Assembly (NCBI GenBank): GCA_030377865.1
Contig: JAUCGA010000036.1
Coordinates: 1-47,128 of the forward strand
Origin: Anaerolineales bacterium HSG25
GTDB lineage: Bacteria; Chloroflexota; Anaerolineae; 4572-78; J111
Length of the DNA: 47,128 nucleotides
Direction of reading: 5' to 3'
The notes below the pieces were generated by a model, which worked only from the letters and a program-made list of their open reading frames with translations, searched no databases and had not been told where the DNA came from. This document shows positions 1 to 46,975 of this stretch, piece after piece; positions within the stretch are counted from its first letter, which is position 1; the number at the start of each line of letters is the position of its first letter. The translations under genes and the position numbers were made by a program.

Positions 1-125
1 GTGACATCGTGGCCTCCCCACTGTCTTTTAAGGTTATGAGATATTATACTTCAAGTAGGGTGCAAAACGCTACTTTCTACTAATACTATTCATTTTATAC
101 TACTTCATACTAGCGAATGGGGAGT
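1..125. repeat. 125-bp terminal inverted repeat, left copy (RAYT leader)
   Basis: Positions 1-125 are the exact reverse complement of 47003-47127, with no mismatch that I can find by base-by-base reading. This copy runs straight into the start codon of the RAYT gene, so it forms that gene's 5' leader. It is AT-rich and has no strong internal hairpin. Because it reaches the window edge, a likely explanation is that the contig was broken at a multi-copy repeat. Confidence 0.95.
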
Positions 126-984
126 GACAAACAAAAAACCATTACAATATGGCTGTTACTACCACATCTACAATCGAGGCAACAACCGCGAAAACCTATT
201 CGTGGAGCGTCGTAACTATCCCTATTTCTTAAAGCTATACGCTCACCACATTCAACCCGTTGCCGAAACTTATGCTTACTGCCTGTTGCCCAACCATTTT
301 CACTTCGCCATCCGCACTTACACCGAAGCGGAACAAGAAGCGTACTGGAAGCGTAGCCAGAGTAGCGGCGACCAGAGTGGTTCACTCTTAAAGAGTGAAC
401 CACTCTCAAACCCAGACGACAAGACTGATCCTGACCAGAGTGACAGTCAGAATGGTTCAATCTCAAAGATTGAACCATTCTCGGCCACTGAACCACTCTC
501 AAACCTTGACGACAAGACAGAGTCCGACCGGATGGCTAGCCAGAGTGACGACCAGAGTGGGCCAATCTTAGAGATTGGCCCACTCTCGAACTCTGAACCA
601 CTCTCTCCTACTTTCAAACTCCGCCCCCCAAGCCGAGCCTTCAACAACATGTTCATCGCCTATGCCCGTGCCTTTAACAAGGCCACGCAACGCACCGGCG
701 CATTGTTTGAAAGCCCATTTGGCCGGAAAATTGTTGACACGCATCCCTATTTGATAACCCTAATTGCCTATATTCATCGTAATCCACAAAAACATGGTAT
801 TGTAACCGACTTTCGAGAATGGCTCTGGTCATCGTATCATGCCATGCTCTCTAGCAAGCCGACCAAAGTTCAACGGGATGAGGTATTGACTTGGTATCAC
901 AATCGCTCTCAGTTCATCAAAACACATCTGCAAGAAGTGGACGAACAGTTCATCGCCTCGTTAATTGTTGATGATTGGGATTGA
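124..984 (+). CDS. REP-associated tyrosine transposase (RAYT, Y1/HUH family) with hairpin-encoded insert
   Basis: This is a 286-residue Y1 transposase of the IS200/IS605-related RAYT branch, which cuts and joins single-stranded DNA at REP hairpins. The N-terminal YHIYNRGNNRE segment is the usual RAYT opening. The HUH metal motif is HFH at residues 58-60 (context LLPNHFHF). The catalytic tyrosine is probably Y216 in AYIHRNPQKHG. Residues about 76-165 form a hydrophilic insert that ordinary RAYTs lack. It contains three REP-like palindromes translated as SGSLLKSEPLS, NGSISKIEPFS and SGPILEIGPLS. The start is GTG with GGGGAG just upstream, and its leader is the terminal repeat. The reading frame is open throughout, so the insert is tolerated or recent. 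Activity is not shown. It is the only recognisable mobile-element enzyme in the window and is a natural candidate for dispersing the family A hairpins. Confidence 0.9.
   Translation: MTNKKPLQYGCYYHIYNRGNNRENLFVERRNYPYFLKLYAHHIQPVAETYAYCLLPNHFHFAIRTYTEAEQEAYWKRSQSSGDQSGSLLKSEPLSNPDDKTDPDQSDSQNGSISKIEPFSATEPLSNLDDKTESDRMASQSDDQSGPILEIGPLSNSEPLSPTFKLRPPSRAFNNMFIAYARAFNKATQRTGALFESPFGRKIVDTHPYLITLIAYIHRNPQKHGIVTDFREWLWSSYHAMLSSKPTKVQRDEVLTWYHNRSQFIKTHLQEVDEQFIASLIVDDWD
374..586. repeat. Three REP-like hairpins inside the RAYT coding sequence
   Basis: Palindromes lie at 374-406 (16-bp arms around one base), 449-481 (15-bp arms, 3-nt loop) and 554-586 (15-bp arms, 3-nt loop). Each is a variant of the family A hairpin. 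The arms differ between copies but stay complementary: GGTTCACTCT pairs with AGAGTGAACC, GGTTCAATCT with AGATTGAACC, and GGGCCAATCT with AGATTGGCCC. Centre-to-centre spacings are 75 and 105 bp, both multiples of three, so the frame is kept. Confidence 0.9.
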
Positions 985-1000
985 GCGCTGTTCGGAGACG

Positions 1001-1058
1001 GAGAGTGGTTCATTCCTCATAACGGAGAGTGGTTCATTCTCAAAGAATGAACCACTCT
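1001..1058. repeat. REP family A hairpin plus a half copy, upstream of the ABC1 kinase gene
   Basis: A perfect 15-bp-arm hairpin lies at 1026-1058 (arm AGAGTGGTTCATTCT, loop CAA). It is preceded by a half copy at about 1001-1016 that shares GAGAGTGGTTCATTC. The hairpin sits 25 bp before the start codon of the next gene, so it would form in that gene's leader RNA and could affect its expression. That effect is inferred only. Confidence 0.85.
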
Positions 1059-1083
1059 GGCATACTCCTGAAATCGAAAATTT

Positions 1084-2796
1084 ATGCAAACAACTCAAAA
1101 ACATATTTCACCAACAACCCCTCCCGCCAGATTCCGATTCCTGCGCGCCTTTTCGGGGACATTCAGAATCTTCATCAGCTTAACTTTCTTCCATTTTTTG
1201 GGAAAACTCTTCGGGTCAGAATGGGAAAATAGCCGCAAACCGGATGTCTATCGCCAAAATGCTCGTCGCTTAAAACGACTGCTTCTCTCATTGCGAGGCA
1301 TATTCCTCAAACTGGGTCAACTTATTAGCATTTTGAGCAACTTTTTACCCGACTATTTTCGTAAAGAGCTAGAAGAGCTACAGGACAAGATTCCGCCCCG
1401 ACCGTTGCATGAAGTTACCGGAAGGATTCGGCAAGAGTTTGGCAAAGAACCTAGCCAACTATTTGCCGAGTTTGATGAGACACCGCTGGCGAGTGCCTCG
1501 TTAGCTCAGGTTCATTTAGCTCGTTTGCATGATGGTCGCCAAGTGGCGGTCAAGGTGCAATATTTGGATATTGAAGCCACCGCCAAAGAAGATTTGCGAA
1601 CCATTAAGACGTTGCTTTTCTTTTACAGTGCTATTTTGCGAATAAAAGGATTGGGCAATATTCATACTCAGTTGAGCGAAATGATTCTTGAAGAGTTGGA
1701 TTTTCGTCGAGAAGCCGAGCATATCACCACTATATCGGCTAACTTTAGCGACAATCCTCGGGTTGCGTTCCCAACCGTCATCCCTGAACTATCATCAGAA
1801 CGAGTGCTGACCACCGAATATATGCCGGGCATGAACATCGCGAATTTGGAAAAATTGGCTGAACTGAACATCAATCGACAAGACCTCGCCGAGCGCTTAT
1901 TAACCGCCTATTGCCAGATGATTTTCAGCGATGGCATTTATCATGCCGACCCGCATCCGGGTAACATTTTGGTTCAGTCGGATGGCACGATAGTTTTTCT
2001 GGATTTTGGGGCCGTTTCTAAACTGTCAGATGACATGCGAGAGGGAATCATCCTGTTTTTTGAGGGGGTTCTCAAACGCAACAATAATCAAATTTCATCA
2101 GCCTTAAAACAGATGGGCTTTATCGCCCTGCATGAGGATAATCGGCATGTTGAGCAGATTGTCGAACAACTGGTTGATTATCTCTACAGCCATTTTTTAG
2201 AACAGATGACCCTCGATTCTTGGAGTTTGTCCGATATTCAGGTTGATATGCAGTCGAAACTTGAGGTCATGGTCGATCTTTCCAACATGGACATCTCGCT
2301 CCGAGAGTTGACTTCGACCTTTCAAATACCCAAAGATTGGGTTCTATTAGAGCGCACAATTTTACTACTTTTGGGGCTATACACCCACCTCGACCCGACT
2401 ATGAACCCTATCAAAACAATTCAACCCTATTTAGAGGAGTTTGTTTTGGGTCAGGATAAAAATTGGCTCAAGTTGATTGAGTCGGCGGTGAAAGATATTG
2501 CTCTGTCGGCGGTCACTGTTCCAGCTGATATTCAAAATTTTCTAAATAAGGCCAATCGGGGCGAATTGGAGGTTCGGGTCAAAGGCCTGACCGAAAGTGC
2601 TAACCTACTGTACGCCCTCGGTCATCAACTTCTTTATGGCCTATTTGTTATGTTTTTTGGTGGATTTGCGTATATAACTTATACCAATGGCGATGTTCTG
2701 CTCTCGAAAGGTTTGGTTGGCTTGAGCATTTTTTTCCTACTCAGCTTGGGCGTTTCTTTTTTACGGGCTGGTAAATGGCGGAAAAGAGGCAGGTAG
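1084..2796 (+). CDS. ABC1/AarF/UbiB-family atypical protein kinase
   Basis: This 570-residue protein belongs to the ABC1 (UbiB/ADCK) family, membrane-associated atypical kinases or ATPases linked in other organisms to quinone and isoprenoid lipid metabolism. Visible motifs are KLGQ at 76-79, the alanine-rich loop ASASLAQVH at 136-144, the lysine of VAVKV (K157), the catalytic loop ADPHPGN near 288-294, and the metal-binding LDFGAV near 305-310. Two hydrophobic segments near the C-terminus (about 508-535 and 543-560) fit the usual pair of transmembrane helices. The ATG start has no strong Shine-Dalgarno, and a later start cannot be excluded. The gene stands alone between palindromic repeats, with a REP hairpin 25 bp upstream and another 12 bp downstream. 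The family assignment is firm; the substrate is unknown. Confidence 0.9.
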   Translation: MQTTQKHISPTTPPARFRFLRAFSGTFRIFISLTFFHFLGKLFGSEWENSRKPDVYRQNARRLKRLLLSLRGIFLKLGQLISILSNFLPDYFRKELEELQDKIPPRPLHEVTGRIRQEFGKEPSQLFAEFDETPLASASLAQVHLARLHDGRQVAVKVQYLDIEATAKEDLRTIKTLLFFYSAILRIKGLGNIHTQLSEMILEELDFRREAEHITTISANFSDNPRVAFPTVIPELSSERVLTTEYMPGMNIANLEKLAELNINRQDLAERLLTAYCQMIFSDGIYHADPHPGNILVQSDGTIVFLDFGAVSKLSDDMREGIILFFEGVLKRNNNQISSALKQMGFIALHEDNRHVEQIVEQLVDYLYSHFLEQMTLDSWSLSDIQVDMQSKLEVMVDLSNMDISLRELTSTFQIPKDWVLLERTILLLLGLYTHLDPTMNPIKTIQPYLEEFVLGQDKNWLKLIESAVKDIALSAVTVPADIQNFLNKANRGELEVRVKGLTESANLLYALGHQLLYGLFVMFFGGFAYITYTNGDVLLSKGLVGLSIFFLLSLGVSFLRAGKWRKRGR

Positions 2797-2807
2797 TATA
2801 GAAAGGA

Positions 2808-2840
2808 AGAGTGGTTCAATCTTCAAGATTGAACCACTCT
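2808..2840. repeat. REP family A hairpin
   Basis: This is a perfect palindrome with 15-bp arms (AGAGTGGTTCAATCT) and loop TCA, 12 bp after the ABC1 kinase stop codon. It may serve as a transcript 3'-end hairpin, but no T-run follows it. Confidence 0.9.
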
Positions 2841-2861
2841 AAAGACACCAAAAGGCCGTTA

Positions 2862-2933
2862 CCTTCCCGCAAGTTCTAAACTTGCGGGAAGATTGGTATT
2901 GAATTAAAAGCCATTATCTGAAAAACTGTGTGA
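2862..2933. repeat. Family G palindrome, copy 1
   Basis: A perfect hairpin lies at 2863-2891 (13-bp arm CTTCCCGCAAGTT, 3-nt loop). A conserved tail follows it up to about 2933. The same hairpin and tail occur in the opposite orientation at 11528-11593, so this is a dispersed unit and not a gene-specific terminator. Confidence 0.75.
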
Positions 2934-2952
2934 TATTCTAGAGGACATAACT

Positions 2953-3675
2953 ATGAGTTTCAACTTTACAGAACTTGATTATCGCCAGACCGACATGGGC
3001 GAGTTAATCCTACGACGACGACGGATTCCCTCGTTGGGTGATACGGACGTGTTTGAGGTTAAACTCGGCGATGAGTTCCTCATGTCCAGCCTGTTCAACG
3101 CCGGAGAGGTGGCCTTGGCCGAACTAGGGCTGGCCGATTTCGGCTCCACGCCGTTGGATGTGGTGGTGGGCGGTCTAGGCTTGGGTTACACCACCAGCGC
3201 GGCCTTGGATCATCCTCATGTAGAATCGGTGTTGGTGGTTGATGCGTTGGCTGATGTAATCGACTGGCATCAAAAAGGACTAGTTCCACTCGGAGAAAAG
3301 CTGTCTGCTGACCCGCGTTGCCGCTTTATCAACGACGACTTTTTTGCACTAGCAAACCCGTCGGGACAGGGCTTCGATCCCCAAGCCCCCAACCGGTGCT
3401 TCCATGCTATTTTGTTGGATATCGACCACTCACCGCGTAACCTGCTGAATCCGAGTCACGGCCCATTTTATGAACCTGCCGGACTGCGTCACTTGACCAG
3501 TTACCTGCATCCCGGCGGAGTCTTCGCTCTGTGGTCGGATGATCCGCCCGATGATGAATTTTTAGCAACACTCGCTTCAACCTTTGCTACGGCCCAAGCG
3601 CATGTTGTCACTTTCCCGAATCCATTGACGAACGGTGAGGCCGCGAACACGGTGTACGTTGCTCGTGTGGCATAA
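2953..3675 (+). CDS. Spermidine-synthase-like SAM-dependent methyltransferase-fold protein
   Basis: This 240-residue protein has a Rossmann methyltransferase-type fold. The glycine-rich SAM motif VVGGLGLGYT is at residues 71-80, and an acidic residue at the end of the next strand (D97 in VVDALADV) would contact the ribose. The overall pattern resembles proteins annotated as spermidine-synthase-like, but I do not see the polyamine-binding signature well enough to call a true aminopropyltransferase. The ATG start is supported by an AGAGGA Shine-Dalgarno about 7 nt upstream. It is a single gene flanked by repeats, with no operon partner. The substrate is unknown. Confidence 0.75.
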   Translation: MSFNFTELDYRQTDMGELILRRRRIPSLGDTDVFEVKLGDEFLMSSLFNAGEVALAELGLADFGSTPLDVVVGGLGLGYTTSAALDHPHVESVLVVDALADVIDWHQKGLVPLGEKLSADPRCRFINDDFFALANPSGQGFDPQAPNRCFHAILLDIDHSPRNLLNPSHGPFYEPAGLRHLTSYLHPGGVFALWSDDPPDDEFLATLASTFATAQAHVVTFPNPLTNGEAANTVYVARVA

Positions 3676-4072: not shown

Positions 4073-4201
4073 TGTTCGGCAATAACCTATTATCGCATAA
4101 AAACTCAAATTCGAGGTCTGCGGAGTGCAAAAGCTTCTTGCTTTTGCATGTTTGTCTCCGGCAAAAGCAAGAAGCTTTTGCACTCCTTTATTGCCGAACA
4201 G
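4073..4201. repeat. Family F long palindrome, full copy
   Basis: Perfect 26-bp arms lie at 4122-4147 and 4161-4186 around a 13-nt spacer. Outer inverted arms CTGTTCGGCAATAA at 4073-4086 match 4188-4201. A second, truncated copy in the opposite orientation lies at 46894-46975. The remainder of the 3676-4231 gap holds only the elements listed here. Confidence 0.9.
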
Positions 4202-13567: not shown

Positions 13568-13674
13568 GGCTGTTAGTAAATATTCAGTGAACTCGCCAGA
13601 AGGAGCGTCAGAAACCCGATTTCTTTAAGAAATCGGGTTTCTAGGGCGGTTTTACTGGACTTTTATGGCTGTTC
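13568..13674. repeat. Family C 91-bp MITE, inverted, with 8-bp target duplication (7 of 8 matching)
   Basis: The element spans 13576-13666. It has the same ends and AAACCCGATTTCT hairpin as the 11305 copy but lies in the opposite orientation. Flanks GGCTGTTA (13568-13575) and GGCTGTTC (13667-13674) agree at seven of eight bases. Confidence 0.85.
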
Positions 13675-15725: not shown

Positions 15726-15832
15726 GTCTCAGGGTAAATATTCAGTGAACTTGCCAGAAGGAGTGTCAGAAACCCGATTTCTTTAAGAAATCGGGTTTCT
15801 AGGGCGGTTTTACTGAACTTTTACGTCTCAGG
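15726..15832. repeat. Family C 91-bp MITE, inverted, with exact 8-bp target duplication
   Basis: The element spans 15734-15824 and has GTAA ends. The exact 8-bp direct repeat GTCTCAGG lies at 15726-15733 and 15825-15832. It abuts the composite family A element that begins at 15830. Confidence 0.92.
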
Positions 15833-15931
15833 AGTGGGTATTAATTAACCTGTGCATATCGGTCATGAGAGTGGTTCAATCTTAAAGATTGAACCACTCT
15901 GGAACGCGCAACTTATTTAATCCCGATTCCT
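15830..15931. repeat. Composite family A element (102 bp) carrying a REP hairpin
   Basis: Outer inverted arms AGGAGTGGGTATTAATTAA and its near-inverse ending GATTCCT enclose a perfect REP hairpin at 15868-15900 (arm AGAGTGGTTCAATCT, loop TAA). The same architecture is seen at 44164-44263. Confidence 0.8.
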
Positions 15932-23289: not shown

Positions 23290-23370
23290 AGTAAAACCGC
23301 CCTAGAAACCCGATTTCTCAAAGAAATCGGGTTTCTGACACCCTTTCTAGCGAGTTTACTGAATATTTAC
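23290..23370. repeat. Family C MITE, left-truncated copy
   Basis: This is the body of the 91-bp element from AGTAAAACCGCC through ACTGAATATTTAC, missing its first 10 or so bases where it abuts the interrupted REP. No target duplication is seen. With the preceding entries this accounts for the 22979-23393 gap. Confidence 0.8.
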
Positions 23371-36050: not shown

Positions 36051-36083
36051 AGAGTGGTTCAATCTTTAAGATTGAACCACTCT
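36051..36083. repeat. REP family A hairpin after the TolB-like gene
   Basis: This is a perfect hairpin with 15-bp arms (AGAGTGGTTCAATCT) and loop TTA, 30 bp past the stop. A degenerate outer arm resembling the composite element precedes it. Confidence 0.88.
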
Positions 36084-37012: not shown

Positions 37013-37103
37013 GTAAAAGTTCAGTAAAACCGCCCTAGAAACCCGATTTCTCAAAGAAATCGGGTTTCTGATGCTCTTTCTAGCGAGTTCACTGAATATT
37101 TAC
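37013..37103. repeat. Family C 91-bp MITE
   Basis: This is a full-length copy with GTAA ends and the AAACCCGATTTCT hairpin. The flanks (CGACAGTC, TCCCATTG) do not match, so it has no target duplication. A TGGGCTACCAACTTAA motif upstream also precedes the copy at 43923. Confidence 0.88.
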
Positions 37104-43922: not shown

Positions 43923-44013
43923 GGTAAAAATTTAGTAAAACCGCCCTAGAAACCCGATTTCTCAAAGAAATCGGGTTTCTGACGTTCCTTCTGGTGAGTT
44001 CACTGAATATATC
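43923..44013. repeat. Family C MITE, decayed right end
   Basis: This copy is 91 bp from GTAAAAATTTAG, but the last bases read ATCG instead of TTAC. It lies beside a transposase fragment and after a CTACCAACTTAAGG motif shared with 36991. Confidence 0.75.
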
Positions 44014-44163: not shown

Positions 44164-44263
44164 GGAATCGGAATCAAACAAGTTGCGCGCTCCAGAGTGG
44201 TTCAATCTTAAAGATTGAACCACTCTCATGACCAACATGCACAAGTTAATTAATGCTCATTCC
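44164..44263. repeat. Composite family A element (100 bp) carrying a REP hairpin
   Basis: Outer arms GGAATCGGAATCAAACAAGT and inverse ACAAGTTAATTAATGC...ATTCC enclose the perfect REP hairpin at 44194-44226 (arm AGAGTGGTTCAATCT, loop TAA). It is the inverted counterpart of 15830-15931. Confidence 0.85.
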
Positions 44264-46893: not shown

Positions 46894-46975
46894 GTTCGGC
46901 AATAACGGAGTGCAAAAGCTTCTTGCTTTTGCCGGAGACAAACATGCAAAAGCAAGAAGCTTTTGCACTCCGCAG
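46894..46975. repeat. Family F palindrome, inverted and truncated copy
   Basis: Perfect 26-bp arms at 46907-46932 and 46946-46971 match those at 4122-4186. The spacer is inverted, as expected for the opposite orientation. One outer arm (GTTCGGCAATAA) is present at 46894-46905. The other side is cut at GCAG where a family C element begins. Confidence 0.9.

Follow-up and report, generated by a model that had tools for sequence, protein, structure and literature searches.

A predicted RAYT gene of Anaerolineales bacterium HSG25, encoding a TnpA_REP-like HUH-Y1 transposase, carries within its own reading frame three hairpins of a REP family dispersed through the host genome, and these are probably copies that landed in a permissive loop of the protein, predicted to be disordered, and were then duplicated together with their linkers. 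REPs are common small bacterial repeats. The gene lies near one end of the window, the 47,128-nt stretch of DNA analysed here, and hairpins at the same place recur in about half of the 124 unique relatives that we compared, where they follow the local REP type and decay much as the hairpins flanking the gene do.

The RAYT gene occupies positions 124–984 on the forward strand, starts with a GTG codon after the first 123 bases of the window and is predicted to encode 286 residues. Its protein has an HUH motif (NHFH at residues 57–60, with H58 and H60; codons 58–60, HFH, at 295–303), a single-tyrosine Y---NP motif (YIHRNP) whose predicted catalytic residue, Y216 (codon at 769–771), is invariant in a 24-row alignment, and a predicted TnpA_REP fold. 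The NCBIfam model NF047646 (REP_Tyr_transpos) matches it with E = 2.7 × 10−10 and 40.3 bits, below the model's 80-bit cut-off, and the match to Pfam Y1_Tnp is weak. Foldseek comparison of the predicted structure (pTM 0.66, with a confident core) gave a single match with E ≤ 0.001, PDB entry 4er8, the complex of E. coli TnpA_REP with a REP hairpin (E = 6.5 × 10−5; TM 0.39 by query and 0.62 by target). The REP-derived insert, residues 83–156 (370–591, forward strand), has pLDDT below 50 nearly throughout and is flanked in the model by helices 68–80 and 169–188. The initial annotation had allowed either an extension of the catalytic domain or a tolerated surface loop at residues 76–165; the prediction of a disordered stretch between helices agrees with the loop and speaks against the extension. 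An Rfam search of window positions 1–3,000 returned nothing at E ≤ 0.1.

The three hairpins lie between the HUH motif and the predicted catalytic tyrosine, where the initial annotation had placed them, at 374–406 (hairpin 1), 449–481 (hairpin 2) and 554–586 (hairpin 3) on the forward strand. All are in frame and are perfect 33-nt inverted repeats, with arms of 15–16 bp and loops of 1–3 nt; as single-stranded DNA they fold with −14.1 to −17 kcal/mol, a stability equalled by 0 of 200 shuffles. The arm differences noted at the outset (GGTTCA/TGAACC against GGGCCA/TGGCCC, the latter in hairpin 3) are indeed compensated on the opposite arm, and two more variants behave likewise, CACTCT/AGAGTG in hairpin 1 and GAATGG/CCATTC in hairpin 2. 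Right-arm remnants with the sequence TGAACCACTCTC stand at 489–500 and 594–605, on the same strand. Blocks of hairpin plus linker are repeated within the insert (66 nt at 79% and 59 nt at 78%), which suggests that the insert is more than three simple insertions and that hairpin-plus-linker units were segmentally duplicated. Directly past the stop codon is a single REP arm (1001–1015, forward strand), followed by a right-flank cognate hairpin 41 nt 3′ of the stop (1026–1058, forward strand); no left-flank hairpin was seen in the 123 bases 5′ of the gene, where the contig begins. Assembly error, which had been named as a possible source of the insert, is unlikely, because the same insert is encoded in a second assembly: the RAYT of Anaerolineales bacterium HSG6 (P0002; 282 residues, 96% identity) carries the same three units at the protein level.

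The family to which these hairpins belong is widespread in the host. The exact hairpin pattern has 96 forward matches in the 4.99-Mb genome, a count that takes in hairpin 1 and the copy past the stop (1026–1058), and 0 matches for the reversed control. When 58 copies, among them those of the window, are aligned, conservation starts and stops sharply at 33 nt, AGAGTGGTTCAATCT-nnn-AGATTGAACCACTCT, and each in-gene unit departs from this consensus by changes on both arms. Dispersed copies within the window lie at 2808–2840, 15868–15900, 36051–36083 and 44194–44226. The idea that compensation is a special mark of the RAYT copies is weakened by the rest of the genome: the variant of hairpin 2 is a dispersed subfamily whose pattern fits 32 places in the forward direction, hairpin 2 itself among them, and 29 of these in reverse too; at the CACTCT position of hairpin 1, both places in the RAYT locus are fully compensated, as are 2 of the 9 found elsewhere. 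Among the three variants only the GGGCCA unit, hairpin 3, is private to RAYT, being the sole copy found in the genome; it may be old, since related RAYTs carry GP...GP units of the GGGCCA type. Of 61 family hairpins from 56 stretches, which sample part of the family, the three in RAYT are the only ones inside a long open reading frame (ORF).

The window also holds a different 33-nt hairpin family, AGAAACCCGATTTCT, at 13610–13642, 15768–15800, 23304–23336, 37037–37069 and 43948–43980. Long GGAGTGCAAAAGC inverted repeats bracket a third Y1 transposase-like ORF of the same genome (locus L211, positions 1429–1977; G000 contig C6), and the window has two repeats like them, at 4122–4186 and 46906–46972.

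A homologue search returned 4,194 proteins and, among the 120 listed, many have by eye hairpin-type peptides at the same place (IGSISEIEPIS, IGPISKIGPI, ICLFSENRQIS). Related loci were gathered by a contig scan, from which the best 80 of 573 stretches were taken, and by a class-wide search with matches in 72 of 396 genomes, which contributed the 30 loci given and 38 further near-full-length places, weaker or partial places being left out. The resulting 151 sequences gave 149 near-full-length genes, which discarding duplicates and contained copies reduced to 124 unique genes, counting that of the window; this sample leans toward close relatives, and broken or partial relatives have dropped out of it. 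The taxa compared for recurrence are Chloroflexota, Bacteroidota, Gammaproteobacteria and a Geobacter. Hairpins were scored as paired bases minus 3 per mismatch, with a score of 12 or more counted as strong. The search for the insert in homologues, proposed in the initial annotation, found an in-gene hairpin 16–86 nt 3′ of the HUH motif in 60 of the 124 genes; five genes have a C-terminal hairpin and none has one elsewhere in the coding sequence. Scores are bimodal across the 124 genes, and 14 of 2,480 synonymous shuffles reach 12 anywhere in the coding sequence.

The 65 in-gene hairpins are uniform in size, with 58 of them 33–35 nt long, and their single arms tend to be palindromic in turn, on a small scale (4.06 pairs on average, against 2.57 when shuffled), so that the REP unit looks like two inverted half-REPs. 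Their reading phase is not uniform: the hairpin centres use all three phases (34, 20 and 4, the remaining 7 having an even loop), and peptides from different phases are unrelated. Since several phases are used and 54 of the 65 have more than one open forward frame, the peptide does not appear to be what is kept. Hairpins also stand beside the genes. One lies within 200 nt upstream in 74 of the 124 loci, ending 8–57 nt before the start codon chosen by script in 71 of these 74, and one lies around or after the stop in 65 of the 124, in 54 of these starting no more than 31 nt past it.

In-gene hairpins resemble the flanking hairpins of their own locus. Across 54 loci, the similarity of in-gene to own flanking hairpins is 0.83, against 0.54 for those of other loci, a result reached by 0 of 10,000 permutations, and the own-flank match is in the top 5% for 33 of the 54. 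Genome-wide, the specificity of the arms across ten genomes is mixed. The TTGGTCCAAT arm occurs at 42 places in genome G387, at 2 in G190 (one inside its RAYT) and at 0 in the 8 others, and the ACCCTTAGGG arm at 4 places in G087, two of which lie within RAYT genes of that genome, and at a single place in G387; the ACCTGACAGGT arm is present in 7 of the 10 genomes and hence is not specific. This ten-genome scan included G125, and locus L125 belongs to G118. In-gene and flanking hairpins tend to occur together (47/52 against 34/60, p = 1 × 10−4), an association that is not significant in phylogenetically independent pairs. Other genes of related genomes hold in-frame hairpins as well: among 116 hairpins located more than 250 bp from RAYT, 25 fall within a long ORF (a few not REP-like by eye), against 4,830 of 7,232 random 33-nt windows, so hairpins outside RAYT avoid ORFs and the RAYT loop is an exception.

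In-gene copies turn over like flanking ones. Among the nearest relatives (core identity of at least 66%), a strong in-gene hairpin is kept in 23 of 35 cases, while 9 others retain a remnant and 3 show no recognisable trace; the corresponding numbers are 24 of 38, 8 and 6 for the left flank and 18 of 38, 15 and 5 for the right flank. A strong hairpin is absent from 64 of the 124 genes, and REP remnants are present in the loop of 13 of the 26 testable hairpin-less genes with flanking hairpins. The 38 of 124 genes without the helix motif that ends the loop are omitted from the remnant and loop-length tests; in the 86 genes measured, the loop ranges from 18 to 112 residues. That the hairpin has decayed in a fair share of the relatives speaks against its being strictly required for any self-targeting or autoregulation.

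A comparison of 12 independent ortholog pairs found third codon positions identical at 102 of 131 sites within hairpins and at 1,266 of 2,329 outside. Of the hairpin base pairs, 145 show no change, 22 a change in both partners and 1 a change in a single partner. These both-side changes would be as expected under selection for pairing, in a count biased by the picking of both pair members for strong hairpins. The earlier proposal that pairing is kept up or restored as a unit is supported. Hairpins are more alike where the proteins are closer, their similarity going from 0.48 at 40–50% protein identity to 0.89 at 80–90%. On a quick tree, built without a mixture model, presence and absence require at least 30 changes, against a shuffled mean of 41.6 with 0 of 500 shuffles as low, and presence is thus clumped.

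Taken together, the results favour a permissive loop in which REPs come and go, rather than a required part of the gene or protein, and the copies that persist may have a function. REP copies would land in a loop that tolerates any in-frame insert and would then be duplicated with their linkers. RAYT presumably moves these REPs, and local hopping next to the flanking copies would make its gene a frequent target; replacement or both-arm changes would hold in-gene copies in line with the family, and damaged copies would decay or be lost. Against simple tolerance stand the avoidance of ORFs by hairpins elsewhere, the both-side changes, with the bias named, and the bimodal scores; tolerance alone also leaves unexplained why this one loop is hit so often.

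The in-gene hairpin might be a cis-acting control site: by acting on the hairpin in the RAYT gene or transcript, the RAYT protein or the folded mRNA itself would restrain RAYT production. The near-perfect pairing with both-arm changes and the fixed site 3′ of the HUH motif suit such a role, as do the association with flanking hairpins and the position of the left hairpins just before the start codon, a place suited to translation control; but renewal from the family explains the both-arm changes equally well, and the flank association, as noted, loses significance in independent pairs. With 64 genes lacking a strong hairpin, decayed remnants being all that half of the testable hairpin-less genes keep, and in-gene retention not clearly better than that of flanking copies, we entertain this control site only tentatively. 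Rather unlikely, too, is the proposal that the in-gene hairpin is the third recognition site of a self-contained package, with matching-arm hairpins before the start codon, inside the gene and at the stop. Were this true, the gene would take the seed of its own REP family along wherever it goes and RAYT would copy, renew or regulate that seed by acting on the gene that encodes it, which would explain the match between transposase and repeat through horizontal transfer.

Two further explanations are less likely. During replication, template-directed repair between the two arms of a quasi-palindrome can keep the arms complementary, and a single ancestral acquisition followed by vertical inheritance with such correction would require neither selection nor transposition. 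The climb of hairpin similarity with protein identity, the clumping on the tree and the presence of the window's three units in HSG6 are as this would have it, yet the hairpins stand in different reading phases, each set matches the flanking hairpins of its own locus and the tree still needs its 30 or more changes in presence, which makes pure inheritance improbable. Least credible, and in our view very improbable, is an inserted peptide that extends the DNA-binding or catalytic domain: its location between the HUH motif and the tyrosine helix would suit it, and the predicted disorder, the wide variation in loop length and the unrelated peptides of different phases all run against it.

Restriction-modification (R-M) ORFs were called by similarity (E ≤ 1 × 10−8) to any of 10 R-M ORFs drawn from L018 and the contig-scan loci themselves. 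Among those 80 loci, the best of 573 stretches, 18 have such an ORF no more than 3 kb from RAYT (L019, L020, L021, L024, L025, L034, L037, L039, L041, L044, L045, L055, L061, L063, L069, L075, L077 and L086) and 14 have one within 600 bp. The R-M ORFs listed, up to four per locus, are on the strand of RAYT, and in six loci (L019, L021, L041, L044, L063 and L075) the gene order is hsdM-hsdS-RAYT-hsdR. R-M coverage is 11–17% within 2.5 kb of RAYT and 0.9% at 5–10 kb; near the REP loci of the window's genome, 0 of 55 have an R-M ORF. The HsdM genes of L021 (8323–8355 and 8498–8530) and L044 (7810–7843 and 7996–8029) carry in-frame REP hairpins at the same two sites with a different arm type. Further in-frame REP-type hairpins occur in L044:12685–15888, L018:1675–2802, L075:7701–9983, L025:6958–9936, L055:5884–9915, L045:10706–12475, L079:1207–5427 and L097:8672–10849, the genes at these eight coordinates being HsdR, HsdS, MmeI-type, Eco57I-type, HsdM, a STAND/WD40 and a radical SAM. 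A second RAYT-like ORF of the window's genome (L018, G000 contig C25, positions 768–1367) is without an in-gene hairpin and sits between hsdS-like and hsdR-like ORFs; the hairpins on its flanks belong to a different family, which contains CTACCCGC/GCGGGTAG. The titles and abstracts of the open-licence literature searched mention no link between RAYTs or REPs and R-M systems.

Several known systems share parts of this arrangement. E. coli TnpA_REP (4ER8, subclass 2.2) has the HUH motif, Y-x-x-x-NP and, by the predicted structure, the fold in common with the window protein, and differs in its 165 residues, too short for the insert; according to the parts of the literature consulted, TnpA_REP recognises folded single-stranded REPs (PMC8266576), and the REPs of the E. 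coli enzyme carry a 5′ GTAG guide (PMC6006769). Intragenic REPs and Rickettsia palindromic elements, as described in the portions consulted of Di Nocera et al. 2013 (PMC3733652), are likewise palindromic repeats in frame in coding genes; those cases concern other genes, of repair and replication, whereas here the host gene encodes the transposase thought to act on the repeat. REPtron and REPIN arrangements, in the account available to us (PMC6006769), share a RAYT flanked by cognate hairpins and the making of one hairpin from two inverted half-units, and the window RAYT adds a third, in-gene site.

The closest counterpart is TnpA_Y1 subclass 2.4 (group 4 of the RAYTs of Bertels). The initial annotation knew of no described RAYT with substrate hairpins in its coding sequence, a claim that does not survive: in the sections consulted, Quentin et al. 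2018 (PMC6006769) report in-frame REPs inside tnpA_REP, generally between HuH and Y, as unique to this subclass, and judge the REP-bearing region peripheral, perhaps with little impact. In-gene REPs were thus already known in 2018, and what is new is their counts across 124 genes: they are now measured rather than only remarked on, with one site in about half of the genes, the local REP type followed, and decay. The passages searched in open-licence literature give no function for the in-gene copies, and whether they are tolerated cargo or a working part can now be tested by synonymous recoding. Judging from the description consulted, the window RAYT and subclass 2.4 share in-frame REPs between HuH and Y, there between β3 and αC, a peripheral insert of variable length, gene-flanking REPs, symmetric long REPs ('double foot') and the HuH motif NH[IFV]H (NHFH in the window protein; 114 of 124 genes). 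They differ in that the subclass has WQ and YIxNNP motifs where the window protein has LFE and YIHRNP (W[QE] between HUH and Y occurs in 12 of 124 genes and YIxNNP in 10), that its REPs have a GT[AG]G foot, seen at the foot of 0 of 65 in-gene hairpins here and within a few bases in 4 (two of them the window's, with GTGG 3 nt inside the stem), and that the window RAYT has three hairpin units. Because the WQ and YIxNNP motifs and the GT[AG]G foot are not found, the window protein is, on its sequence, filed as a RAYT and not as subclass 2.4. The trait, described as unique to subclass 2.4, is thereby extended to proteins that lack three of the subclass's features, and in-gene REPs may reach beyond it.
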